NCBI GenBank assembly: GCA_002162955.1
Contig: MABD01000009.1
Span: 1 to 64,000, forward strand
Direction: 5' to 3'
Length of the DNA: 64,000 nt
Origin: Gammaproteobacteria bacterium 45_16_T64
Lineage (GTDB): Bacteria > Pseudomonadota > Gammaproteobacteria > Pseudomonadales > Ketobacteraceae
Program-made: the position numbers and the translations under genes
Shown here: piece by piece, positions 41,487 through 64,000 of the stretch
How the letters are laid out: every line of letters starts with the position of its first letter
Position numbering within the stretch: the stretch's first letter is position 1
The notes under the pieces: generated by a model
Seen by the model: the letters and a program-made list of their open reading frames with translations, nothing else
What the model was told of the DNA's origin: nothing
Databases searched by the model: none

Positions 41487-42260
41487 CTACGCTTTTAGCC
41501 TATGAATTAGGGATGCATCATTTTCAGATAGGTAATTAATCAACACTGCTTTATAACTACCTTTGAACACAAACAAACTACCTGCTGCCGCGCCGATTAC
41601 ATCATAGGTATGCACTAACTCTTTTATATGATCAACAGAGCCAGCCCCCCCAAGTACAGTCATTGGAACCTTAATTGTCTCTCTTATTCTTCTAACTATA
41701 TTCAGATCATAACCCTTCATTACGCCATCATTATTGATCGAATTAACGACTATCTCCCCAACCCCCATTCTTTCTAGAACTCTTGCAAATTGGACAGGAC
41801 ACTTACCAGTATTTTTAGTAGCATTATGGGTCCATATCTCATACTTTGACCCAATGAGTTTCTTTTTAACGTCCAGTATAGCCACAACACTTTGCCCGCC
41901 AATCTCTCTGGCAATTTCTCTCACTAACTCAGGGTTATGCACTATCGATGCACTTAAAGCTACTTTTTCAACACCAAGACTAATTATCTTTCTAGCTTGC
42001 TCTTTAGTTGTCACACCGCCACCGTAACAAAAAGGCATTCGGCACTCTGAAGCCATTTTCTCGATCATATGAAAGTCTGGCTCACCAGACGCACGGGTAG
42101 CATCGATATCAAGCACTATTAGCTCATCAACTTCTTTTTCATTAAAAATCTTAACAGCATTTAATGGGTCACCTACGTACTTTCCCTCTTTAAATTTAAC
42201 TGTTTTGACCAACCCCTTATTTCTAATAAGTAAGCACGGTATCACCCTAGATCTAAGCAT
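41487..42260 (-). CDS. HisF-like cyclase subunit homologue, triad 1 (WbuZ/HisF2 type)
   Basis: A 257-residue TIM-barrel homologue of imidazole glycerol phosphate synthase HisF. True HisF has an Asp in the CLDVR motif of strand 1; here it reads CLLIR, so the first catalytic Asp is absent, while the second Asp (in AILDVKKK) is kept. That argues against histidine synthesis and for the WbuZ/HisF2 role: receiving ammonia from the HisH-like partner for sugar amidination by the WbpG-like enzyme. It begins three bases after the hisH-like stop. The likely product is an acetamidino sugar. Confidence 0.88.
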   Translation of the reverse strand: MLRSRVIPCLLIRNKGLVKTVKFKEGKYVGDPLNAVKIFNEKEVDELIVLDIDATRASGEPDFHMIEKMASECRMPFCYGGGVTTKEQARKIISLGVEKVALSASIVHNPELVREIAREIGGQSVVAILDVKKKLIGSKYEIWTHNATKNTGKCPVQFARVLERMGVGEIVVNSINNDGVMKGYDLNIVRRIRETIKVPMTVLGGAGSVDHIKELVHTYDVIGAAAGSLFVFKGSYKAVLINYLSENDASLIHRLKA

Positions 42261-42263
42261 GCC

Positions 42264-42878
42264 TCAAAGTTCCGCGAAGTTTTTAAGTAATCTAATGCCA
42301 TTTCCATGGCTTTTCTCGGGATGGCATTGAATACCATAAACATTCTTGGAATTCACAATGCTGCTAAAGGTTTGCCCATAACGAGAACTCGCAAGCGTGC
42401 TTTCTTCTGACTCGCATTCAAAATAATAAGAATGCAGAAAGTAAAAACGAGAAGTGTGGTCAAACCCTGTCAAAATTTTGCTGCTTTTCAACGGCTGAAT
42501 ACTATTCCACCCCATATGTGGTAAGTACTCTTGCGCTTCCGAATCACAAAAAACGATTTTCTTTACAACGCCATCAATCCACCCCAAACCTGAAAGCTCC
42601 CCTTCTTCTGAAGAACATGCAAGCATTTGCATTCCCACACAAATACCTAAAATAGGCACTTCTTGCTCCAACACTAGATCATCCAACCTAGCACGCATTC
42701 CAGACTCGTTTAACCTTGTAATAGCATAGTCAAACGAACCCACACCAGGAAAAATAATCTTAGTTGCGCCTTTCAATTGATCTGCAGTTTGAGCAACCTT
42801 AAATGGTATGTTCAGACGCTTATAAATATTCGTGAATGCTAACACATTCCCAAGTCCATAATCGACCACGACTATCAA
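42264..42878 (-). CDS. HisH-like glutamine amidotransferase, triad 1 (WbuY/HisH2 type)
   Basis: A 204-residue class I glutamine amidotransferase that releases ammonia for the HisF-like/WbpG-like pair. The nucleophilic Cys is in ILGICVGMQML and the His/Glu dyad in IQCHPEKS, so the triad is intact. The N-terminus is IVVVDYGLGNVLAF, as in HisH. Its ATG overlaps the wbpG-like stop by four bases. Location in a polysaccharide operon without other his genes argues for sugar amidation rather than histidine biosynthesis. Confidence 0.9.
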   Translation of the reverse strand: MIVVVDYGLGNVLAFTNIYKRLNIPFKVAQTADQLKGATKIIFPGVGSFDYAITRLNESGMRARLDDLVLEQEVPILGICVGMQMLACSSEEGELSGLGWIDGVVKKIVFCDSEAQEYLPHMGWNSIQPLKSSKILTGFDHTSRFYFLHSYYFECESEESTLASSRYGQTFSSIVNSKNVYGIQCHPEKSHGNGIRLLKNFAEL

Positions 42879-44044
42879 CGCTTCCCTCCTTTTTCCAACC
42901 CCAGAAACTTCATTATTAGCGCACCCACTTCGTAAATCGTCTGTTGTGACTTATAGTCTCGATATGTCTTGTTTGGTGCATCCATATACTCCTGCAATTC
43001 ATCAACAGTAATATCTAGCTTGGTTGCTATATACTCAAAATCATGAGCTATCGATTCTTCATCGTAGGATTTCTTTTCCAACAATTCTAAGGCCTCAGAC
43101 CTCGACATTTGCCCAGTGAGAATGAGGCTCGAAAACTGGACTTTGCGTGTGTCAAAACCAAATTTTTTCGGAAGCCAGTAACCCTCGTAGAACTTAGTAA
43201 AACGAGACTCAAAATGTTTCTGGGCATAACGCTGATACCCATAATTATCAACCAAGAACTGGGTTGCCTCCTCTTTGTTGTACACCATATAATCCAATGG
43301 CCTATATACTTTAATACCCTTAATATAGGGTAGATAGACTTTGTGCCAAAGAATGTTCGTTACCCTATAATTCTTTAGTGGGCGAGTCCCATGTTTACGA
43401 TGAATATCCTTTAACTGAATTGAATCAGACTGATAGTACATCCACTCTATAGGGTTACGAATACATTCCGTTGAGTAGTTTCCACCTGTCAAAATATGTT
43501 TTATTCCGTGTTTATTTGCAAATTTATACATCGTAGCAAAAAACGCATGATCTTGTGGTGTATCTATATGTGGGACCCCTGATTTGAAATATGCTAATTG
43601 CAGGTCTTTCATTTCTTCCCAATCGATAACCTCTGTGTACAGGTCCAAATCAAGCCTATCGACAATTTGCTCGATATTGTTGACGGCTTGCTGTGAATTC
43701 CAGCCAGCATCCACGTGAAATACAAGAGGCCTAAGACCTAATTTTTCCTTAGCCAGATATACTAGATAGGAGCTGTCAATCCCTCCACTCATTCCAATAA
43801 TACAATCGAAATCTTTATCGCTATTCTGGCGCTTAATGTCATCTGCTATTTTGGAAATTTGACCCCACCCCTTCTCGGAAGTGTCCCATTTCGGCTCAAT
43901 ATCTTTCCAAAAAGTATTGCAATGATCGCACGTACCTGTTGAATCAAATACAATCTTACTATCGGTAGTGTCCATGACACAATTTCTACAAACTTTCAAA
44001 TCCACCTCGCCCACCTCGCTCACGATAGCGTACATATTAAACAT
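42875..44044 (-). CDS. N-acetyl sugar amidotransferase, triad 1 (WbpG/WbuX/PseA family)
   Basis: A 389-residue adenine-nucleotide alpha-hydrolase (PP-loop) enzyme that converts an N-acetyl group on a sugar into an acetamidino group. It has an N-terminal zinc-ribbon-like set CRNC and CDHC (about residues 19-42) and the PP-loop IGMSGGIDSSYLVYLA near 87-102. TGGNYSTECIRNPIEWMY is a family stretch. ATG at 44044 is followed by another at 44035; both precede the first Cys. It belongs with the HisH- and HisF-like genes that follow, with overlapping or near-overlapping ends. Its sugar substrate is not shown by the sequence. Confidence 0.9.
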   Translation of the reverse strand: MFNMYAIVSEVGEVDLKVCRNCVMDTTDSKIVFDSTGTCDHCNTFWKDIEPKWDTSEKGWGQISKIADDIKRQNSDKDFDCIIGMSGGIDSSYLVYLAKEKLGLRPLVFHVDAGWNSQQAVNNIEQIVDRLDLDLYTEVIDWEEMKDLQLAYFKSGVPHIDTPQDHAFFATMYKFANKHGIKHILTGGNYSTECIRNPIEWMYYQSDSIQLKDIHRKHGTRPLKNYRVTNILWHKVYLPYIKGIKVYRPLDYMVYNKEEATQFLVDNYGYQRYAQKHFESRFTKFYEGYWLPKKFGFDTRKVQFSSLILTGQMSRSEALELLEKKSYDEESIAHDFEYIATKLDITVDELQEYMDAPNKTYRDYKSQQTIYEVGALIMKFLGLEKGGKR

Positions 44045-53918: not shown

Positions 53919-55436
53919 TCACATTCCGCATACGGACCTAACCTTGGCAAACAGCTCTCGAGCCTGTGCATGGCTTAACCCTATCAAACTGGGAAATTTA
54001 TAGATTGCAACGCCAATCAAAACTAAATAACCTAATCCATTCAGTAACATGCGTAAGAGTATAGCAGTTGAACTACCTAAACTCAGGTTTACCAGGAGAT
54101 TTGTAAGATAGCCTAGAAATAGGAATAAGAACAAGCCATAGAACTGATAGAGCCACTCTGCCTTCATACCCAATCGGCGGGAAATCCACCACAAAGAAAC
54201 GTTAACTGTAAAAAACTGCACCACGACCATTTTCAAAGCGAGACCAGAAGCTCCCAAACCTAGGCCAGGAACATTTGCATCAGCAGGAGCTAGAAGAAAA
54301 TATGTAAGCAATACCCCAATTACGTTACTTACAACGCCCAACACAAGAGTTGATTTTGTCATTTCCATTGCCAATAACATCGTGCCTGCAACCTGCCCCC
54401 TAGCTTGATCAATAGGGTAAATGAACATAATCATCATCACCAGAGATCCGGCCAAGTATGAATCACCAAGAAATATTGAAATAATTTCATCTACCCAGGG
54501 TATTAGCGCTCCAGATATCATAGCGCCTAAGCAATACAATGACTTGGTAGTTCTTGTAAACAATTTACGAACAACCTCTACTTTCTTAGCCTGATAAGCT
54601 TCCGATACTTCTTTCCAAAGTATATTAAGAACCGACCTCGTGGCGATAAGGCTTACTACAGAAAACTGCAATGCGACTACATAATAAGCCTGCTCTATAG
54701 CCCCACCAAACCGCTGCAATAGCCATGTATCTGCAAAACCAGTAAGAACAGCAACCCAAACCGTCGGTACCAGAGGGTAACAGTATTTCCCATACTCTCT
54801 TATAACCGCAGACGGAGCTTCCTTATCTTTTGAATACCTAAGGGGAAAGAACCAAATAGCTACGCAACTCCCCAGGAAAAACTCGACGGCTACGATCCCA
54901 TAGACAAATTCAATTGACGGTCTACCGCTCCAGAACAACAGGACAATTATTATTAAGTGGACACATGCTATCGAGACACTCACTGCCTGAACTATATGGG
55001 TGAACCGTTGCGATTCTCCAATTTGAACGGCAGCCTGCCAAACTTTATTCTGTAAGAATACAGCCACAAATGAAACAAACACTCTTTCCCTTGACTCCCC
55101 GTGCCATAATTCTCGTAGAAAATCATCGGGGACAACAGCAACAATCAATATGATTGAGAATAGAAACTGAAGCAATATCCATAGCCCATAGTAGAGCAGG
55201 TATGATTTAGACCTTATCCTCTGGGAAATAAAAGTAATGAAAGCGTTTGAACTCCCCATATCCAAGAGCTGAGTCAACGCTGTAAAACTTGCCAGAAGAA
55301 AACCGAAGACCCCATATTCAGCTGGTCCCAGGCCTCTCGCAAGTAAAATACCAGTGATAAAGCTGAGTAATGCGCGAGTAACGTTTCCAATAACAGAGTA
55401 GGCTACCCGGTTAAAAACCTTATTAGATATTTGCAA
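53919..55436 (-). CDS. wzx: Wzx-type O-antigen flippase
   Basis: A 505-residue polytopic membrane protein of the MATE/PST polysaccharide transporter group with about twelve to fourteen predicted helices. The N-terminus NRVAYSVIGNVTRALLSFITGILLARGLGPAEYGVFGFLLA is the usual Wzx start. It would flip the undecaprenyl-linked repeat unit across the inner membrane for Wzy polymerisation. It overlaps the following gene upstream (the 405-residue protein) by 14 bases. Together with the wzy-type gene it marks the locus as Wzx/Wzy-dependent. Confidence 0.9.
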   Translation of the reverse strand: MQISNKVFNRVAYSVIGNVTRALLSFITGILLARGLGPAEYGVFGFLLASFTALTQLLDMGSSNAFITFISQRIRSKSYLLYYGLWILLQFLFSIILIVAVVPDDFLRELWHGESRERVFVSFVAVFLQNKVWQAAVQIGESQRFTHIVQAVSVSIACVHLIIIVLLFWSGRPSIEFVYGIVAVEFFLGSCVAIWFFPLRYSKDKEAPSAVIREYGKYCYPLVPTVWVAVLTGFADTWLLQRFGGAIEQAYYVVALQFSVVSLIATRSVLNILWKEVSEAYQAKKVEVVRKLFTRTTKSLYCLGAMISGALIPWVDEIISIFLGDSYLAGSLVMMIMFIYPIDQARGQVAGTMLLAMEMTKSTLVLGVVSNVIGVLLTYFLLAPADANVPGLGLGASGLALKMVVVQFFTVNVSLWWISRRLGMKAEWLYQFYGLFLFLFLGYLTNLLVNLSLGSSTAILLRMLLNGLGYLVLIGVAIYKFPSLIGLSHAQARELFAKVRSVCGM

Positions 55437-56640
55437 TTTTTGACCTATTAGATATATCCAAGATTTGCATCAATGCTTTATGGATAATCTCGAGATAGCC
55501 CTCCTCCACCTCCTGCTCACGAAACAGATCGTAGATTAAATTTCGATCTACACCTTGATCTAAGATATGATTAATTGTTTCATCACTAATAGCTACTGTA
55601 TCGAAGCTAGATATTCCAACTCCGCTCCCAAAAGTATCAACATGAGACTTTTTCTCCTTGGTAAAAGTATGATCATGCAAGAGTAAAATTGGCTTGTTAA
55701 AACACACGCTTTGATAAAGTGCACTAGAAGAATGTCCAATAACAATACAAGCCTTACTAGTCAGGTCTAATGTCTTCCCATAAACAATTTCTCTATTATA
55801 TGGGTTATTTTCATACTCAACCTTACCGGAAGCGCCCACCACTACCTTTTTGCCAGTAGCGTTCTCTACTCTCTCAAATACGTTCTTCATATTAGAATAG
55901 TATTTATCAAGATCCGTTGTGGTTGAGTAACCACTCAATTTCGCATCAGGAGCATACCCTATAGACTCATCCACGAATAAGCAGATTGACTCACTTACCT
56001 CATGCATTTCCCAGTTAACGGCTGGGCTTGGAATGCTCACAAATGCCGTCCCGAGCTTCAGATGCCTATCAAAAGCCTTTCTCCCAGCTCGCCCAACTCC
56101 AATCGCCATACTCGGTCGAGCAAAATACCCCGTATGTCTAAGTATTAGTTCAGCTACTTTGAAATACATAACCTTACCAAGTTTGGGTAAAGCGGCAAAC
56201 AACCTGTCTAGGCTAGATATCCTTTGATATAAATAATGCCACCCCGTCAATGCTCCCCCTCCCGGGACAGGCATAGCGTTTTCGAACTGAAGAATCGCAT
56301 ACCTAATACTAAAAACTTTGAATAGACGCAATATCCAGTAATCATTCACACACGGCGAACTATGCCTACTTAAATGGATAACAACTGCATTCGAAGACAA
56401 TTTTTCGATTGCAAGTGCCAGCTGAGCTTTAGTAGAAAATTCGATCCTATTCCCCGCCTGATATTGCAACTTAGCACTTCCCGAAAAATACCCTCGGACA
56501 CTGGCATCACTGAAATACAAGCTAGAAACGTCCCATACTTCTACATCAAACCCTTTTTGCTCAAACCATTCAGGTGCAACTTTCCGAGCAAAAATAGTTG
56601 TCATTGGAACACAGCTGAGAAAAACTAGCCTGCCTTTCAT
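55423..56640 (-). CDS. Polysaccharide-locus protein of unassigned function, possible GT-B glycosyltransferase
   Basis: I do not recognise a named family with confidence. The 405 residues are soluble, without signal peptide, and have an alternating alpha/beta pattern. The segments GRLVFLSCVPMTTIF (start), VVIHLSRHSSPCVNDYWILRL, and in the second half VVVGASGKVEY, CIVIGHSSSALYQSVCFNKPILLL and IYDLFREQEVEEGYLEIIHKAL look like the C-domain of a GT-B glycosyltransferase or CDP-glycerol/polysialyl-type transferase (the HSSSALYQS turn). It overlaps wzx by 14 bases and the sulfotransferase gene by four, so it is within the operon. A transferase for an unusual residue is the best guess. Confidence 0.55.
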   Translation of the reverse strand: MKGRLVFLSCVPMTTIFARKVAPEWFEQKGFDVEVWDVSSLYFSDASVRGYFSGSAKLQYQAGNRIEFSTKAQLALAIEKLSSNAVVIHLSRHSSPCVNDYWILRLFKVFSIRYAILQFENAMPVPGGGALTGWHYLYQRISSLDRLFAALPKLGKVMYFKVAELILRHTGYFARPSMAIGVGRAGRKAFDRHLKLGTAFVSIPSPAVNWEMHEVSESICLFVDESIGYAPDAKLSGYSTTTDLDKYYSNMKNVFERVENATGKKVVVGASGKVEYENNPYNREIVYGKTLDLTSKACIVIGHSSSALYQSVCFNKPILLLHDHTFTKEKKSHVDTFGSGVGISSFDTVAISDETINHILDQGVDRNLIYDLFREQEVEEGYLEIIHKALMQILDISNRSKIANI

Positions 56641-57530
56641 GATTGGCTCGAAAAATATTCAACCCGCTCCCTTAAGCTAGGAGAAATCGAGTCTAATACG
56701 TCCATATTTCTAACTCTAGAAGTAGGCTTGATAGACGATATGATTTCCTCTGTCTTACAGCCAGACTCCAACCCCAAATAGTCCAGCAATTTACCTATAA
56801 CAGCTTCGGGTGCAGACAATAGATCGCCATATTTAATCTCAATTTTATTTTCAATACTATCCACGCCCTCATTCACTCTCACATAATAATACGCACACCT
56901 ATCAACTTCCGACATACCCTGCCAAGATTCACGATCATGCTCTTCAACCCAAAAAGGTACGGGATACCCGTTCACGTTAAAACAAGGCAATATCATCCCC
57001 TTTGCTGCATTTTCGTCCGAAAACCACCCTTTCGCAATTAAAGAGTTAAGCGTTCCTACCGCTTCCCGACGCATCATCACAACCCTTGTACCTGGATAAT
57101 AGGACGTGATTTTTGGTAAAAAAGGAACTATATCAGGCATTTTATATGCAAGTAGGTGATTTGAGCCATTGCTAAGAGCTTCAACTTTTCCAACAGACCC
57201 ATTTAATCGCTCATTCACACAACGTTCCGACTTAACTCGATAAATTGAGCTGTCATCGGCTCTATTGCAATTTAGGCCTCTGCCTGCCAGTGCTCCAGAA
57301 AAGAACTCCTCATACAGGTAAGTTTCATACAGCACCTTCCAGTTCGCGGAAGTCATGGAGTTAATCATAGAAACAAGAGTAAATAGTGTGGGGGGCTCAA
57401 AGGCATATTCCACTCCTTCAAAGCTGTGCAGTAGCTTCCCTAAAATAGTAGTTCCACTCCGAGCAGAGCCACTAATAATCACTGCAGCATTTACTTTCGA
57501 ATACGCCTCTTTCGATATTTCTAAATTCAT
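56637..57530 (-). CDS. Sulfotransferase-family protein
   Basis: A 297-residue PAPS-dependent sulfotransferase-like protein. The 5'-phosphosulfate-binding loop ISGSARSGTTILGKLL (about 19-34) and the 3'-phosphate-binding segment TRVVMMRREAVGTLNSLIA (about 150-170) are both clear, as is a later IEIKYGDLLSAPEAVIGKLLDYLGL stretch. No signal peptide, so it would act on the lipid-linked or nucleotide-linked precursor in the cytoplasm. The ATG overlap with its neighbour places it in the operon. Sulfation of the repeat unit is inferred. No PAPS synthesis genes are in the window. Confidence 0.85.
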   Translation of the reverse strand: MNLEISKEAYSKVNAAVIISGSARSGTTILGKLLHSFEGVEYAFEPPTLFTLVSMINSMTSANWKVLYETYLYEEFFSGALAGRGLNCNRADDSSIYRVKSERCVNERLNGSVGKVEALSNGSNHLLAYKMPDIVPFLPKITSYYPGTRVVMMRREAVGTLNSLIAKGWFSDENAAKGMILPCFNVNGYPVPFWVEEHDRESWQGMSEVDRCAYYYVRVNEGVDSIENKIEIKYGDLLSAPEAVIGKLLDYLGLESGCKTEEIISSIKPTSRVRNMDVLDSISPSLRERVEYFSSQS

Positions 57531-57601: not shown

Positions 57602-58384
57602 CTATCTACAACCGGGATTCCAGTTAGCCAAATTAGCACCTGAACTCAGCATAAATTCCCGTGCATTCGGCAGGCCGTTTCCAATAAAATTAAATAAATT
57701 TGCAGTTGCCACAGCAGAGACTTCTGGCAATTTCATACCATCCAATAAATGACTCTCTTTACCCGCCCCGCCCATCAATATTAGAGGTACATTTAAGCCC
57801 GAGCAGTATTGACTAACTATATCTAAATCGTAACCAAAACCAGTACCATCTTTATCAATTGAATTTAGTAAAATTTCACCTACACCCAAACTTTCTACAT
57901 AGGAAAGGTACTCCAAGAGTGAAGCCTCAATAAGCGTACTACCATCGTCAATATACACGCAACATTCACCCTCAGACATTTTATAATCGACGCTCGCAAC
58001 CAAACTCTGAGAGCCATATCTATCGATGATTTGCTTTACCAAATCAGGATCTCTGTAAAGTGCACTATTAATAACAACCTTATCTGCCCCGTTAAGAAAA
58101 AGCGTTTCGGCATCAGAGACCTTCTTTATTCCACCACCAGCAGCAACTGGAACAAATACTTTCTCCACAAGTCTCCTAACCGTTGACGCAAAAACCTCTA
58201 TGTTTTTATCATTTCTTGAAGCGTCAACAACTACAAGTTCATCTATAGAAAAGGAAATTTTTTGAAACTTGTAGTTTTTCTCAAGCCAATTTATATCTCC
58301 AACGCGTTGCAACCTAAAATTTCGGCTTTGCATGAAAGCGCCATTATTATAAATGAGGCCAAAAATCAATCTATCCCTTAACAT
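57602..58384 (-). CDS. HisF-like protein, triad 2
   Basis: A 260-residue TIM-barrel HisF homologue. At the strand-1 active-site position it reads FGLIYNNG, so the first catalytic Asp of true HisF is missing, as in the other copy, while SVDYKMSEGE keeps the second. LLNSIDKDGTGFGYDLDIV and LMGGAGKESHL are standard barrel motifs. It overlaps the hisH-like gene by seven bases. It is clearly divergent from the triad 1 copy, so the two triads are not a recent duplication. Proposed role: ammonia-channelling partner for the amidotransferase of triad 2. Confidence 0.87.
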   Translation of the reverse strand: MLRDRLIFGLIYNNGAFMQSRNFRLQRVGDINWLEKNYKFQKISFSIDELVVVDASRNDKNIEVFASTVRRLVEKVFVPVAAGGGIKKVSDAETLFLNGADKVVINSALYRDPDLVKQIIDRYGSQSLVASVDYKMSEGECCVYIDDGSTLIEASLLEYLSYVESLGVGEILLNSIDKDGTGFGYDLDIVSQYCSGLNVPLILMGGAGKESHLLDGMKLPEVSAVATANLFNFIGNGLPNAREFMLSSGANLANWNPGCR

Positions 58385-58995
58385 TCAAATAACTCTACAA
58401 AATTTCTCAAAAGTTGAAGCCCGTTGTCCTGGCTTAGCTCTGGATGAAACTGTACTCCAGCGACATTTTCCAACTCAAAGCTCGCAACAAACGCCCCTCC
58501 ATATTGACAGGTGGAAGCCCCAATACTTGAGTCACTCAACATCCGAAAGCTATGAGTAAAATAAAAATCAGGGCCAGTACTTAATCCCTTATACAATCTA
58601 CTCATTTCATTGAATATGACTTGATTATATCCAACATGCGGGACCTTTAGGCCTTCAACCTCAAAGCGCTCAACTCTCCCATCTATTATTCCCAGACCAA
58701 AATTAAGCTCTCCTTCGGTACTTGCCCTCCCTAGCAGTTGCATCCCCAGGCATATTCCAAGTATTGATTTATTATTGCCAACAACTAGGTCAACCAATTT
58801 CTTATCCAGTTCCAGGTCTATAATCCTGCGCATTGCTTGCGAAAAATTTCCAACCCCGGGCAGTATTAACCTATCTGCGTTATTAAGATCCTCAAATTGG
58901 TTAGATACCAATACGTCCTCTTGACCAATATAATTCAACGCACCAACAATTGATCTAACATTCCCCATGCCATAGTCAACAATTACTATTTTCAC
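58378..58995 (-). CDS. HisH-like glutamine amidotransferase, triad 2
   Basis: A 205-residue glutaminase of the HisH family. KIVIVDYGMGNVRSIVGAL opens the protein, ILGICLGMQLLG carries the nucleophilic Cys and GVQFHPELSQD the His/Glu pair, so glutaminase activity should be intact. ATGA-type overlap with the amidotransferase gene (four bases) and a seven-base overlap with hisF-like indicate a coupled module. It lies in the operon with legionaminic-acid-type genes, so ammonia is probably used for amidination of a nonulosonic acid or its precursor. Confidence 0.9.
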   Translation of the reverse strand: MKIVIVDYGMGNVRSIVGALNYIGQEDVLVSNQFEDLNNADRLILPGVGNFSQAMRRIIDLELDKKLVDLVVGNNKSILGICLGMQLLGRASTEGELNFGLGIIDGRVERFEVEGLKVPHVGYNQVIFNEMSRLYKGLSTGPDFYFTHSFRMLSDSSIGASTCQYGGAFVASFELENVAGVQFHPELSQDNGLQLLRNFVELFEC

Positions 58996-60137
58996 AATTC
59001 AAACGCTTCGCCAACGGTGAACTTAGGCTCCCAAACCCCATCAACTTTCTCAAAGAGAGCTCTATTCGCATATTTATCTAATACGAGATCGAACTCTTCC
59101 TTAGTCATTTGATAATACTCGAGATAGAGATCAATAAAATCATATGGGTATTGGTTATCGTAGGCCATCACCAAATTCAATGCTTGCTCTCTAGTCATGG
59201 CTCCGCGTCTTATTTCTATTCCAGCGTCCTGAGTTGCGCGACCGAATCCAAATTTCAAATACATAAGGTAGGCATGTAGAGAATATAGAGCTTGGTCATT
59301 CTGAGAGAAATTCGTGAACGTTCCGGCAGTTCCCTCCTCTTTTTCCATGAGTCCACAATGCTCTTTTGCTACGACGTAATTCCGATAAGAATCCCAACTT
59401 TCATAATAAGACCAATGAGTAAAAGCCAGCTCATTTTCCTTAACTTGTGCCTCTGAAGGGAAACGCCAAAATGCCAAATCACCAGCAGTCATGCCATCCT
59501 CAGATGCCACTATCCCAAAGACTTTATCGTAGCCTCCCTCAAAATATATTCTCTTCATATATTCAATATTATACAGCGCTTTATGTTTACTTTCAGTAGA
59601 CCCGCCATACTCTACCTCACCGTCTTCACCATAAAAGATTAGGGGGATGTTAAAGTTCATTGCTGTCTGAATCACGGCACTTTTTATCGCAATCAACCAA
59701 CCGTAGTATGGGAATCCTTTTTCAATAAAACCATGCTTATTTAATTTTTGCATAACCTTAGAATTAGGAGAAACATGTATATGATTGTAACCCGACTCTA
59801 TAAAGCTAGTAAGATTCTGCTCGCCTAACTCTAAGGATAATGCAGGCCTTACGGTCACTGTTAGCGGGTTCATTCCATATTCATGCTTCAATTTATAGGC
59901 AACATATGAGCCGTCCTTACCTCCACTTACTGGCACAACACAATCGAACCCCTCTGAATTCTTCGAGCGATATTTATCTAAGAGTCTATCAAGTTCCTTC
60001 TGCCGCCCCCCCCAATCTAGTGTCTTTTTTTCATCCATCCAAACACAAGCATTACACCTCCCCTTACTATCAAAAGCAATGCGAGGCCTAGTAGACATAT
60101 TTAAGCAACTTGAACACCAAAACACAGAACTACTCAT
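58992..60137 (-). CDS. N-acetyl sugar amidotransferase, triad 2 (WbpG/PseA/PtmG family)
   Basis: A 381-residue PP-loop enzyme expected to form an acetamidino group. The N-terminus has CSSC and, later, CNAC (zinc-ribbon-like, about residues 8-32). The PP-loop is VPVSGGKDGSYVAYKL (about 69-84), in a slightly different form from triad 1. FYGEDGEVEYGGSTESKHK replaces the equivalent family stretch of triad 1. It lies 17 bp after the SDR gene and precedes hisH-like and hisF-like genes. In Campylobacter, family members act on pseudaminic or legionaminic acid, so an acetamidino-legionaminic acid is likely here. Confidence 0.87.
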   Translation of the reverse strand: MSSSVFWCSSCLNMSTRPRIAFDSKGRCNACVWMDEKKTLDWGGRQKELDRLLDKYRSKNSEGFDCVVPVSGGKDGSYVAYKLKHEYGMNPLTVTVRPALSLELGEQNLTSFIESGYNHIHVSPNSKVMQKLNKHGFIEKGFPYYGWLIAIKSAVIQTAMNFNIPLIFYGEDGEVEYGGSTESKHKALYNIEYMKRIYFEGGYDKVFGIVASEDGMTAGDLAFWRFPSEAQVKENELAFTHWSYYESWDSYRNYVVAKEHCGLMEKEEGTAGTFTNFSQNDQALYSLHAYLMYLKFGFGRATQDAGIEIRRGAMTREQALNLVMAYDNQYPYDFIDLYLEYYQMTKEEFDLVLDKYANRALFEKVDGVWEPKFTVGEAFEL

Positions 60138-60154
60138 TATTAATCCTCGGAAAT

Positions 60155-60916
60155 TTATAAAGTAAAACCATCATCAACTATTATGTTCTGCCCATTAATG
60201 TACTTAGAATCATCTGAAAGTAGGAACATAATCGTACCCACAACATCTTCAGTGTTCAGCATGCCCTTGCCTAAACACTTACTTTTGTATCTTTCTAAGA
60301 ACTCAGTAGGCTGTTTGTCAAGCACACCGCCAGGACTAACACTATTAATTCTAAAATTGCTATCCTTCGCATAAGCCGCAAAATAGCGATTCAAATGTAT
60401 AACTGCCGCCTTAATGGCTGCATATTCCACTGGCATAGTCATACTTGTATTATCATAGACATCAAAACTTGGAGCTACCACACCATAAACGGAAGATATA
60501 TTCACTAGAGAGATTCGTGCTTTATTTTCAAGAAAATACACTAAGCACTGCTGGGAAAATAGAAAAGTAGAGCCAATATTTAGAGTCAAATTTTGATTAA
60601 AACTATCGAGAGAAACATCTAGTAACGCTTTTCCATAGTTTTCATTACGAGGGTAACAGCAATTTACAGCTCCAGTCATACCAACTAATGAAGAAAAGAA
60701 AGATTTTACATCATCCTCGTCATTAACATCTAGCCGGTCACAACATAAATTAGCATTATCAAACGAAATGCCATTGGAAGAAAGCTTAGTCCTCATATTC
60801 TCCACATCGATATCAAGGGCTATTACTGAAGCCCCACGCGCTAAAAGAGTAGCAACAACACGCGTACCAAGTAACCCACCAGCACCTACTACAACAATTT
60901 TTTCATTATCAAGCAT
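60155..60916 (-). CDS. SDR oxidoreductase of the legionaminic-acid gene group (PtmA-like)
   Basis: A 253-residue classical SDR: VVVGAGGLLGTRVVATLLARGA at the N-terminus, NISSVYG as the serine site, and VEYAAIKAAVIHLNRYFAAYA with catalytic Tyr and Lys. NSVSPGGVLDKQPTEF and INGQNIIVDDGFTL are standard C-terminal features. The start overlaps the cytidylyltransferase stop by eight bases. Homologues of PtmA occupy this kind of position in Campylobacter legionaminic acid loci, where they help make a glucosamine precursor. The assignment rests on context and is tentative. Confidence 0.78.
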   Translation of the reverse strand: MLDNEKIVVVGAGGLLGTRVVATLLARGASVIALDIDVENMRTKLSSNGISFDNANLCCDRLDVNDEDDVKSFFSSLVGMTGAVNCCYPRNENYGKALLDVSLDSFNQNLTLNIGSTFLFSQQCLVYFLENKARISLVNISSVYGVVAPSFDVYDNTSMTMPVEYAAIKAAVIHLNRYFAAYAKDSNFRINSVSPGGVLDKQPTEFLERYKSKCLGKGMLNTEDVVGTIMFLLSDDSKYINGQNIIVDDGFTL

Positions 60917-61625
60917 TCACTTCATCCACACGTTTTAAGATAGCTTCCGCAAGCATGAAATCATATATATCATCAATATCCACGGCTCTTTCTTTTGGAA
61001 CTTCAATTGCAACCACTTTTCCTTCAAAAATACCCTCGTGAGTCATAATAAAATCAACGCTCATTGCATATACAACGGTGGACACATCGAAGACTCTAGG
61101 AGAATCCTGCCTTCTATACACTCTGTTCTGAGGGTCAATTACCAACTTTATCTGCTCACCGTCTATTTCCCTAACCATATTAAAATATGGACTGCGAGAA
61201 GCCTCAGTCATTGAAATACAAATATCTGCTTTTAGACGCTCTCTCTTGAACATTGCGGCCTCAACATCCTGAACACTTCTAAGAGGGCTCGTTACCGGAA
61301 GGCTTACCATCTCCTGGAAATCACCGACCTGGTCCCTTACCCATTCAACTGCATGCCGCCAGGAATCCCACTCCGCAGAACTATCACCCGCCAAATGAGA
61401 AGGGCGCTCAATGACTGTTGCCCCTTGACTCTCAGCTATTCTAGCAATCTCATCATCATCAGTAGAAACAAACACTCTATCTAACTTGTCTACTTTCTTC
61501 GCTATATCTATTGAATAACAAATCATAGGGCGACCGGCTAAACTCTTAACATTCTTCCTTGGAAGCCCCTTCGAGCCTCCCCTAGCAAAAATAAAACCAT
61601 GAGATATCAGATCACCTTTCCCCAT
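60909..61625 (-). CDS. CMP-sugar synthetase (acylneuraminate cytidylyltransferase family, LegF/PtmB-like)
   Basis: A 238-residue enzyme that activates a nonulosonic acid as its CMP derivative. The signature FIFARGGSKGLPRKNVKSLAGRPMICYSIDIA contains the nucleotide-binding loop, and FVSTDDDEIARIAESQGA, ERPSHLAGDSSAEWDSW and VSLPVTSPLRSVQDVEAA are typical of NeuA, PseF and LegF. The neighbours (CBS-nucleotidyltransferase, PtmA-like SDR, NeuD-like acetyltransferase) point to legionaminic rather than neuraminic acid. Overlaps on both sides (19 and 8 bases) put it in a tight operon. Confidence 0.9.
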   Translation of the reverse strand: MGKGDLISHGFIFARGGSKGLPRKNVKSLAGRPMICYSIDIAKKVDKLDRVFVSTDDDEIARIAESQGATVIERPSHLAGDSSAEWDSWRHAVEWVRDQVGDFQEMVSLPVTSPLRSVQDVEAAMFKRERLKADICISMTEASRSPYFNMVREIDGEQIKLVIDPQNRVYRRQDSPRVFDVSTVVYAMSVDFIMTHEGIFEGKVVAIEVPKERAVDIDDIYDFMLAEAILKRVDEVNA

Positions 61626-62590
61626 ATAGCCTCCGCCTTAATTTCATCAATCAATTCAACTGTTCTCGCAGCTTGGTGTACATCCACACACTTATTCTCT
61701 TGGCCTTGGATCAGAGCCACAAAATCTTTGATCATAGAAACATACATCTCGTTCCGGTCAATCGTTGGATCACAATACAGTACTTTCTCGCCCCCCTCTG
61801 ACTGTAGTGTTACGCAATTGCCTATCAAGTCCCAATCCAACCTCCCTTTGGTTCCTACAAAACTACATTTTCTACTGGGCACATGCTGTAGAAAATCCAA
61901 ATGCATATGGCATACACACCCCCCTCTCGAAACCAACATAATATCTGCTGACTCCTCTACCCCCAAGTTGAGTGCTTTTGAGTTCCGTAAATGAGAATAT
62001 ACAGGCTCCATTTCACCACATAACCACTGCATGTAATCTAATTCATGACTAAGTTCTAGTAACACTCCACCACCTAACTCTGCTTGGGCTGAAACCGTTT
62101 CTGTATAATGTTTATTCGGTCTCCATTGAGGTAAATATTGTCCCATATTAACTGATGCATGAAACATAGACCCAATCACTTCAGAACTGAGCATTTCGCG
62201 AATTAATAAGCTAGAATGCAAATACCTTAAGCAATACCCCACTGCAACAGGAGTTTCACATTGTGATGCTACAGCAGCCAATTTAAGAGCATCATCTTTA
62301 TAGCCTGCTAGTGGTTTTTCAATAAGTACGGGAATTGCAGAAAGCAACAATGGAATGCTATGCTCGGAATGCTTTGTGGCTGGTGACGCCACAATAACAA
62401 AATCTGGATTCAACTCAATCATAGATTGTATATTAGGAACTACCGTATCCGCATGTTCTATACCTTCTTTAGGCATTCTACCACTAGCAGGCATTGCAAT
62501 AACTCGTACACCATCAAACAAAGCCTTAACATTCCTTCGATGCCTTACTGCAATATTACCAAGACCAACAACCCCAACCAACTTTATCAC
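61607..62590 (-). CDS. Gfo/Idh/MocA-family oxidoreductase of the legionaminic-acid gene group
   Basis: A 327-residue NAD(P)-dependent sugar oxidoreductase. KLVGVVGLGNIAVRHRRNVKAL is the Rossmann start, IPVLIEKPLAGYKDDALKLA contains the conserved EKP motif with catalytic Lys, and VGYCLRYLHSS and GGGVLLELSHELDYMQWL are further family motifs. Its ATG overlaps the next gene upstream (CBS-nucleotidyltransferase) by four bases. It lies where oxidoreductases occur in Ptm/Leg-type clusters. Its exact step is unknown. Confidence 0.85.
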   Translation of the reverse strand: MIKLVGVVGLGNIAVRHRRNVKALFDGVRVIAMPASGRMPKEGIEHADTVVPNIQSMIELNPDFVIVASPATKHSEHSIPLLLSAIPVLIEKPLAGYKDDALKLAAVASQCETPVAVGYCLRYLHSSLLIREMLSSEVIGSMFHASVNMGQYLPQWRPNKHYTETVSAQAELGGGVLLELSHELDYMQWLCGEMEPVYSHLRNSKALNLGVEESADIMLVSRGGCVCHMHLDFLQHVPSRKCSFVGTKGRLDWDLIGNCVTLQSEGGEKVLYCDPTIDRNEMYVSMIKDFVALIQGQENKCVDVHQAARTVELIDEIKAEAIWGKVI

Positions 62591-63645
62591 GTAGCCAAAC
62601 CTAACGTTCGAATATCAACCTGAGCTCGATTAAAATCATCCATACGACCAATATCAAGCCAATATTCATGAATGGGGAACATAAGTACTGAATCATTAAC
62701 ATCAAGGCTCTTTTCTAAAATAGTGGGCATATCTACTTTATGGTTAGAAGGCACTGATCTCGCAAGTCTTTGACTTACAACATATATACCTGCATTAACG
62801 AAATACCTCTGGATTGGCTTTTCAATCATGCTTTTGATTTTATTTCCCTCCCCAGTAATCACTCCGTAAGGTACCTGATATTCGTATTCCCTTACACACA
62901 TGGTAGCATCAGCGTCGTTCTCGTTATGGAATTCTAGCAACCGCTGAAAATCGACGTTAGTTAGAATGTCTCCATTCATCATTATGATAGGCAAGTCTGG
63001 CATATCTACAGGTAGCAACCCCAATGCCCCCCCAGTCCCCAATGGAGCCTCCTCATGAACGTAAGAAATATTTACATTCCACTGGCTACCGTCACCAAAA
63101 TGATCCCTTACTTGGTCCGCCATATAATGCGTTGAAACATAAAAATTGACAAAACCCGCTTTAATGAAACTCTCCAAGACAGTTTCAAGCATCGGTCTGT
63201 CACCAATAACTAACATGGGCTTTGGACAAAAATCAGTTAGCGGTTTTAGCCTTGTTCCAAACCCGCCCGCCATCAGAAATATCGGGTTTTCATATTTTGG
63301 ACACGAAAGAGCACTTTGTAAGGTTTCAAGCCCTACAACAATCCCATTTTCAAGTACAGGAATAGACAAAATATCTTCTCGCTTCATTAGCTCAACCAAC
63401 TCACTCTTTGGTGTACTGGAGCTTGTTGTAATCGGGCTGATTTTCATTACATCTGATACTGGAGCGCTTAACTGCAGATTATTAAGTAACCCTCTGCGAA
63501 TATCCCCATCTGTTACCGTCCCTAATAAGGATCTGTTTTCATCTACAACCAACACTACCCGTAGCGATTCAGCATTTATAAGCTCTAAAGCCTCTCGAAT
63601 CGTCTGATCTGAATGAATTAGAATGTTTTCCCACTTAGTATCCAT
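62587..63645 (-). CDS. Sugar-1-phosphate nucleotidyltransferase with N-terminal CBS pair (PtmE-like)
   Basis: A 352-residue two-part enzyme. Residues about 1-115 form a CBS domain pair (LRVVLVVDENRSLLGTVTDGDIRRGL and VPVLE-type strands), probably regulatory. Residues about 118-345 are a nucleotidyltransferase: PIFLMAGGFGTRLKPLTDFCPKPMLVIGDRPMLE, with MMNGDILTNVD for the metal. In the Campylobacter legionaminic acid pathway the equivalent enzyme, PtmE, makes a GDP-glucosamine-type precursor from GTP. The gene is one base after the partial acetyltransferase gene and overlaps the oxidoreductase gene by four. Confidence 0.88.
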   Translation of the reverse strand: MDTKWENILIHSDQTIREALELINAESLRVVLVVDENRSLLGTVTDGDIRRGLLNNLQLSAPVSDVMKISPITTSSSTPKSELVELMKREDILSIPVLENGIVVGLETLQSALSCPKYENPIFLMAGGFGTRLKPLTDFCPKPMLVIGDRPMLETVLESFIKAGFVNFYVSTHYMADQVRDHFGDGSQWNVNISYVHEEAPLGTGGALGLLPVDMPDLPIIMMNGDILTNVDFQRLLEFHNENDADATMCVREYEYQVPYGVITGEGNKIKSMIEKPIQRYFVNAGIYVVSQRLARSVPSNHKVDMPTILEKSLDVNDSVLMFPIHEYWLDIGRMDDFNRAQVDIRTLGLAT

Positions 63646-63646
63646 A

Positions 63647-64000
63647 TTATTTATCCATTGGGTTTACGACCGTTGTTTTAGGTCCATAAGCAATGACGTT
63701 TGCCTGTAAATCTTTGGTAACAGCTGCTCCTGCCCCCACAACAGAGCCACTCCCGATAGAAACACATTGAATAACACAAGCACCGGTACCAATGTGAACC
63801 TCGTCTCCTGTCGTAACTTGACCACTCAAGACCACTCCTGGTGCGATATGATTATGTGAACCGATAACACAATCATGCTCAACAATCGCCCCTGTATTAA
63901 CAATTGTATTTTCCCCTATGATCGCACCAGCTTGAATAATAGCACCTTGCATCACCTGAACCCCTACACCTAATACCGCATAAGAAGAGATCGTCGCTGT
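63647..64000 (-). CDS. NeuD/LegH-like acetyltransferase, partial (5' end beyond window)
   Basis: The reading frame stays open to the right edge, so the N-terminus is missing. The 117 visible residues are left-handed beta-helix hexapeptide repeats: TATISSYAVLGVGV, GAIIQAGAIIGENTIVNTGAIVEHDC, then HIAPGVVLSGQVTTGDEVHIGTGA and VVGAGAAVTKDLQ. An internal GTG/ATG at 63955 is not a convincing start, because the hexapeptide pattern continues upstream. The catalytic His region of these acyltransferases would be near VEHDC. It fits the NeuD/LegH/PglD group, which N- or O-acetylates nonulosonic acid precursors. Confidence 0.85.
   Translation of the reverse strand, partial: TATISSYAVLGVGVQVMQGAIIQAGAIIGENTIVNTGAIVEHDCVIGSHNHIAPGVVLSGQVTTGDEVHIGTGACVIQCVSIGSGSVVGAGAAVTKDLQANVIAYGPKTTVVNPMDK

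Follow-up and report, generated by a model that had tools for sequence, protein, structure and literature searches.

Which sugar does the gene cluster at the right end of the window supply? The window is the 64,000-nucleotide stretch of Gammaproteobacteria bacterium 45_16_T64 that was analysed (contig MABD01000009.1, positions 1 to 64,000; C8:1-64000 of the 6.49-Mb genome), and its contig continues rightward past it. The first-pass annotation of this DNA placed six genes, for a NeuD-like acetyltransferase, a PtmE-like nucleotidyltransferase, a Gfo/Idh oxidoreductase, a LegF-like synthetase, a PtmA-like dehydrogenase and an amidotransferase, in one tight operon at 58992-64000. It assigned them to a Campylobacter-like route to cytidine monophosphate (CMP)-legionaminic acid through a precursor linked to guanosine diphosphate (GDP), and expected legB, legC, legG and legI just to the right. 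All six genes lie on the minus strand there with the family matches given in Table 1. The four expected genes, including the NeuB and NeuC homologues on which the annotation had staked the pathway, are found on the same contig and strand and in the same run.

The cluster is a single minus-strand run of 14 genes from legB to hisF, with spacings of -19 to +17 bases throughout, the NeuD-to-WbuX part included. It is transcribed in the order legB-legC-legG-formyltransferase-PIG-L-legI-neuD-ptmE-ptmF-legF-ptmA, then the WbuX gene, and it ends with HisH and HisF genes that lie left of the annotated region and were omitted from the operon. The formyltransferase and PIG-L deacetylase genes were beyond the view of that annotation. 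A legionaminate pathway is upheld, but its plain product, CMP-Leg5Ac7Ac, is probably not what is made, since the formyltransferase/PIG-L pair and HisH/HisF point to N-formyl and amidine groups. Judged from gene content, the operon probably makes CMP-activated N-formylated legionaminic acid (Leg5Fo7Ac) for a surface polysaccharide, with PIG-L and the formyltransferase performing an acyl swap.

The formyltransferase and PIG-L pair

The pair sits between legG and legI, right of the window, and overlaps both genes. In the proposed pathway PtmE, with PtmF and PtmA, would supply N-acetylglucosamine linked to a nucleoside diphosphate (NDP), probably GDP, from which LegB and LegC would form an NDP-linked 4-amino-4,6-dideoxy sugar. 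NeuD, in the LegH role, would acetylate N4, the later N7 of the product, although its assignment as the N4-acetylating enzyme is uncertain. LegG would epimerize and free the sugar, LegI would add phosphoenolpyruvate, and LegF would add CMP. The hexose C2 nitrogen becomes N5 in NeuB-type synthase chemistry; PIG-L would strip the acetyl group off this nitrogen and the formyltransferase would formylate it, leading to CMP-Leg5Fo7Ac. The swap may occur at about the stage of the free sugar, a guess from the pair adjoining legG. WbuX with HisH and HisF may then convert one of the N-acyl groups to an amidine.

PIG-L keeps the AHxDDE and HSDH motifs. Of the metal-site residues, H12, D14 and D15 are present in 74/74 aligned rows, and H115 and H118 in 75/75. 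PIG-L/LmbE enzymes of known substrate act on 2-acetamido sugars. The protein has the PF02585 domain and the motifs in common with the N-deacetylases BshB and TT1542, and its sequence weakly resembles 1uan and BshB, but it falls far below the BshB cut-offs and is tied to nonulosonate genes.

The formyltransferase has the fold of ArnA. Its structure model (42 sequences, from an alignment that drew on 37 of the 80 loci described below) has a predicted local distance difference test score (pLDDT) of 96 and a template-modelling (TM) score of 0.86 to ArnA (5j63). The Asn, His and Asp positions of such enzymes are the catalytic triad, and the catalytic Asn normally assists formyl transfer. His108 and Asp144 are kept in 81/81 family members, and Gly replaces Asn in the same 81/81, a count biased by one of the two scan patterns, which contained Gly-x-His-Pro. 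Relatives found without the Gly pattern also have Gly (L010-L013, L130, the main copy in L100, L014, L015, L016 and L131), while Asn is found instead in L125-L129, L133 and the second Halorussus copy. The Gly-type enzyme therefore shares its fold and the active-site His and Asp with ArnA and methionyl-tRNA formyltransferase (Fmt), and is unlike them in the Asn-to-Gly change and in its adjacent deacetylase gene.

Five aligned query sequences, run against 84,980 species genomes, gave 267 formyltransferase relatives, and the best 80 of these 267 loci were analysed. They are spread over many bacterial phyla and archaea. PIG-L adjoins the formyltransferase gene on the same strand in 74 of the 75 loci where 400 bases or more follow the gene; in the other five of the 80 the contig ends within 400 bases. 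In the exception, L030, PIG-L is also part of the locus but lies apart from the formyltransferase gene and is read in the other direction. Chance placement of PIG-L is rejected on this adjacency. Several of the 80 loci are short, and matches among them are LegG in 72, LegI in 67, PtmE in 63, LegC in 53, LegF in 53 and NeuD in 51.

Halorubrum sp. PV6 links the pair to a known sugar. Its S-layer glycoprotein glycans bear 5-N-formyl-legionaminic acid, and HrrPV6_1050 is proposed as a possible formyltransferase, the sole candidate named in the text (PMC6137143). The mass step of 302.10 printed there fits one formyl and one acetyl group, for which the calculated residue is 302.11, and not two acetyl groups (316.13). 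Locus L130, from the Methanomicrobium phylum, has the order LegC-LegB-LegF-LegG-formyltransferase-NeuD, followed, in the reverse orientation, by PIG-L and LegI; the formyltransferase is Gly-type, and PIG-L is what separates NeuD from LegI. The gene-specific parts of the three distinct printed Halorubrum primers, one at the start of legI and one at each end of legF, have 0 mismatches in this locus, and of seven printed product sizes six equal the L130 gene length minus one base, with LegI off by six bases. On these matches, L130 is a locus of PV6 itself or of a very close relative. The number 1052 is absent from the main text of PMC6137143, and the gene unmentioned there is almost certainly PIG-L. 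The same paper prints one reverse primer for both legI and legF, which matches only the legF end (L130:6973); the sequence given for the legI reverse primer is probably mistaken.

The Halorubrum locus shares with the operon the Gly-type formyltransferase, NeuD, PIG-L, LegG, LegI, LegF, LegB and LegC. It differs in being archaeal and in the reversed orientation of its PIG-L and LegI genes, and no PtmE match is present in its 18 kb. In Halorussus caseinilyticus, a plasmid likewise groups neuC, PIG-L and neuB with a Gly-type formyltransferase, and a further formyltransferase, of the Asn type, lies beside them. The pair offers a gene-level answer to a step that the Halorubrum paper left open, the origin of a 5-N-formyl group from an N-acetylated precursor, and predicts the same formylated sugar in bacteria of many phyla.

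Nucleotide carrier and placement of the predicted formyl group

In Plesiomonas shigelloides, the legionaminate cluster reads legB-legC-legG-legI-legH(NeuD)-ptmE-ptmF-legF-ptmA (PMC4481668, Table 5); the authors place it on the Campylobacter jejuni route, with a GDP-linked precursor, and name the NeuD homologue LegH. This order is identical to that of the operon once the formyltransferase/PIG-L pair is set aside; Table 5 contains neither member of the pair and has a terminal GlmU-like gene. Since the Plesiomonas cluster was assigned to the GDP route by its authors, the shared order supports the first-pass reading. The C. jejuni route to CMP-legionaminic acid is described as GDP-linked (Schoenhofen 2009, as cited in PMC6137143 and PMC4481668). 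Counterparts of PtmE, PtmF, PtmA, LegB, LegC, LegG, LegI and LegF are gathered in the operon, where they are likened by context and not by Campylobacter sequence. Unlike Campylobacter, the operon has a NeuD-type acyltransferase in the presumed LegH role, and the formyltransferase and PIG-L between legG and legI.

PtmE has a CBS pair fused to a nucleotidyltransferase, and its nearest NCBIfam model is mannose-1-phosphate guanylyltransferase (144.6 bits, below the cut-off of 440). PtmF and PtmA match the Gfo/Idh and short-chain dehydrogenase (SDR) families, with the FlagModPtmA model below its cut-off. The presence of these three proteins is consistent with a GDP-linked precursor, which is unproven. 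A precursor linked to uridine diphosphate (UDP), as in Legionella, with PtmE having another job, is unlikely but deserves weight. The Protein Data Bank relatives of LegB and LegG are named for UDP-sugars or GDP/UDP-sugars (3pvz, matched by LegB, is the entry named UDP-N-acetylglucosamine 4,6-dehydratase), and some nonulosonate loci have no PtmE match. On the other side, PtmE, PtmF and PtmA share an operon, like the cluster that PMC4481668 assigns to the GDP route, and the model nearest to PtmE, though below cut-off, is a guanylyltransferase.

The formyl group could instead be on N7, with the formyltransferase acylating the 4-amine made by LegC and PIG-L acting elsewhere or stripping stray acetyl groups. 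In favor of this position, sugar formyltransferases such as WbkC and ArnA take their names from nucleotide sugars with a 4-amino group. Asn-type formyltransferases, however, are found within 1.5 kb of LegI/LegG in seven of the 80 loci (L025, L042, L045, L061, L065, L092 and L094), five of them without NeuD nearby, and control locus L140 has one between LegI and PtmE, without PIG-L. This pattern is expected if the Asn-type enzyme formylates a free 4-amine (N7) without a deacetylase and the Gly-type enzyme formylates N5 after PIG-L. NeuD is kept near LegI/LegG in 50 of the 71 LegI loci with the Gly-type enzyme (67 out of the 80, together with L010, L011, L012 and that of the window organism), and the Halorubrum sugar is reported as the 5-N-formyl form in the text of PMC6137143. 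Formylation of N7 is improbable, and formylation of N5 is preferred. The mutual exclusion of NeuD and an Asn-type enzyme near LegI/LegG is a tendency and not a rule. Asn-type relatives occur in 2/369 genomes of the window's class, its own genome not among them, and none was found on plasmids at E 1e-50.

Identity and distribution of the Gly-type enzyme

A 41-sequence tree separates all 27 Gly-type rows from the remainder by a branch supported at 99/96. These rows are from 22 of the 80 loci, the window organism, two haloarchaea and two rhizobia; the haloarchaeal enzymes group with their bacterial counterparts from legionaminate loci (97/89), and the two rhizobial ones fall outside. The Asn-type rows are eight from a LegI neighborhood (L140 and seven of the 80) and five archaeal, plus the Fmt of the window genome. 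Four long-branch rows were excluded (the second copy in L100, L014, L131 and L133). The possibility that the Gly-type enzyme is the housekeeping Fmt is rejected, since a separate Fmt above cut-off is encoded on contig C1 of the same genome.

It is highly improbable that the Gly-type protein is not a formyltransferase and instead moves a different acyl group, or acts alongside PIG-L in a non-catalytic capacity. The Gly in all members, a pattern-biased count, and in the pattern-free relatives would be in keeping with such a role, but the fold match to ArnA, the retained His108 and Asp144, and the haloarchaeal Gly-type member in the locus matching a strain with a formylated sugar all argue for formyl transfer. 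Gly-type enzymes annotated as methionyl-tRNA formyltransferases, as in Halorussus and Ensifer, are likely misnamed. A clade-specific methionyl-tRNA formyltransferase is listed with pseH for Campylobacter coli clade 2 (PMC12102941), and may also be a sugar formyltransferase.

The formyltransferase is rare in the window's class, with matches in 5/369 genomes (E up to 1e-35, its own included), one only 35% identical, and in its order it occurs in 2/293 genomes, again including its own. Among the plasmid matches listed, most are annotated as ArnA or are rhizobial relatives, bar one haloarchaeal plasmid; phage matches are 28-31% identical and come from unannotated records. Five archaeal loci of the Methanomicrobium phylum (L125-L129) have an Asn-type formyltransferase and PIG-L beside genes that look WbqC-like and glycosyltransferase-like by eye. 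LegG and LegI matches are absent from these five loci, and their Asn-type formyltransferase and PIG-L may serve other sugars.

Forty NeuB loci of the same class served as controls, 25 of the 28 above cut-off and the 15 next best by score, with a gene counted as present above 50 bits. The three other loci above cut-off (G000, G440 and G532) were left out as owners of the pair, and some control loci are short (L161, 3.6 kb; L173, 5.5 kb; L155, 8.5 kb; L150, 9.6 kb). Neither gene is present in 35 of the 40, PIG-L alone in four, the formyltransferase alone in one, and both in none; with G000, G440 and G532 included, the pair is owned by 3/43. Three of the PIG-L loci (L170, L171 and L174) appear pseudaminate-type by eye, L170 with a weak formyltransferase-like open reading frame (33 bits), and in control L146 the PIG-L match is weak and some 6 kb away from LegI. 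An ordinary Campylobacter-type pathway to CMP-Leg5Ac7Ac, with the pair serving an unrelated sugar, would suit the 35 control loci that have neither gene and the pair on its own in L031, but is very hard to reconcile with a pair that overlaps legG and legI and with LegG in 72 and LegI in 67 of the 80 loci.

Several points weigh against an N5 acyl swap by this pair. The formyltransferase lacks the catalytic Asn. The pair is found in L031 (18.8 kb) without legionaminate genes save a weak nucleotidyltransferase match, Gly-type relatives occur outside legionaminate clusters in the rhizobial L015 and L016 and in L131, and PIG-L matches occur with no strong formyltransferase in four control NeuB loci. 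NeuD and an Asn-type enzyme are both present in L065 and L092, L040 and L046 combine NeuD with an additional formyltransferase-like gene of low score, and neither NeuD nor an Asn-type enzyme is close by in 16 of the 71 LegI loci. In Halorubrum the 5-position of the formyl group rests, in the text of PMC6137143, on earlier work, and the authors give the LegH role to HrrPV6_1014 and not to NeuD (PMC6137143).

The pathway itself is known, and the pair is a variant of it with a predicted chemistry. No description of a PIG-L/formyltransferase pair in legionaminate clusters is present among the literature matches listed, from a search mostly outside subscription papers, and these matches also contain no report of formylated legionaminic acid in bacteria. 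A formyl group in place of an acetyl group would be expected to alter recognition of the sugar by antibodies, phages and lectins.

Genes of the operon and neighboring features

Table 1. Genes of the 14-gene run, from left to right on the contig; window and contig C8 positions coincide, and rows marked C8 lie past the window.
Product	Position	Strand	Family evidence
HisF-like (WbuZ/AglZ type), putative sugar amidotransferase partner	57602..58384	-	WbuZ TIGR03572 226.2 bits, below cut-off 299.7; HisF 158 bits, below cut-off
HisH-like glutaminase subunit	58378..58995	-	TIGR01855 205.7 bits, above cut-off 105.4
WbuX N-acetyl-sugar amidotransferase	58992..60137	-	TIGR03573 349.5 bits, above cut-off 203.2; solved relative 8wex
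PtmA-like SDR	60155..60916	-	NF006619 338.9 bits, above cut-off 255; FlagModPtmA 190.9 bits, below cut-off 350
LegF-like CMP-nonulosonate synthetase	60909..61625	-	PF02348 68.9 bits; best NCBIfam PseF 131 bits, below cut-off 205.7
PtmF-like Gfo/Idh/MocA oxidoreductase	61607..62590	-	PF01408, PF22725
PtmE-like CBS pair and sugar-1-phosphate nucleotidyltransferase	62587..63645	-	PF00571 in two stretches, PF00483
NeuD/LegH-like acyltransferase	63647..64294 (cut by the window edge at 64000)	-	TIGR03570 202.6 bits, above cut-off 160.8
LegI (NeuB) synthase	C8:64287-65363	-	TIGR03569 475.6 bits, above cut-off 399.65; PseI 248.9, below cut-off
PIG-L deacetylase, 224 residues	C8:65363-66037	-	PF02585
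Formyltransferase, ArnA-like, 300 residues	C8:66028-66930	-	both ArnA/Fmt domains
LegG (NeuC) hydrolysing 2-epimerase	C8:66927-68093	-	TIGR03568 464.3 bits, above cut-off 235.9; 5zlr 353.6 bits
LegC-type aminotransferase	C8:68086-69249	-	TIGR04181 516.4 bits, above cut-off 420
LegB 4,6-dehydratase	C8:69262-70452	-	3pvz 684.8 bits, residues 2-396 of 396; PseB and FnlA models far below cut-off

LegF and PtmA are putative names that rest on context, with the PseF and FlagModPtmA models below cut-off.

WbuX, HisH and HisF are all encoded in the operon, WbuX and HisH above cut-off and the HisF-like protein with a WbuZ match below it, and together they may add an amidine. A more specific scheme, in which these proteins act after N5 formylation to give an amidine, possibly an N5 formamidine, with formyl transfer by an Asn-less enzyme lineage, is doubtful. 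No amidinated form of N5-formylated legionaminic acid was seen in the literature consulted on legionaminate. A second WbuX/HisH/HisF-like set lies at 41487-44044 in the same polysaccharide region, where a family-library match was run for its WbuX alone; this set could mean two sugars with amidines, or two separate steps.

A 405-residue protein encoded at 55423-56640 gave no match in Pfam and NCBIfam searches, and its structure model is poor (pLDDT 62). Its homologues, 18-23% identical over the alignment, are near nonulosonate genes in L060, L062 and L160, and it is a candidate legionaminyltransferase. The operon is flanked by a sulfotransferase gene (56637-57530) and an adenylylsulfate kinase gene (L002:14649-15254), which suggests a sulfated polysaccharide.

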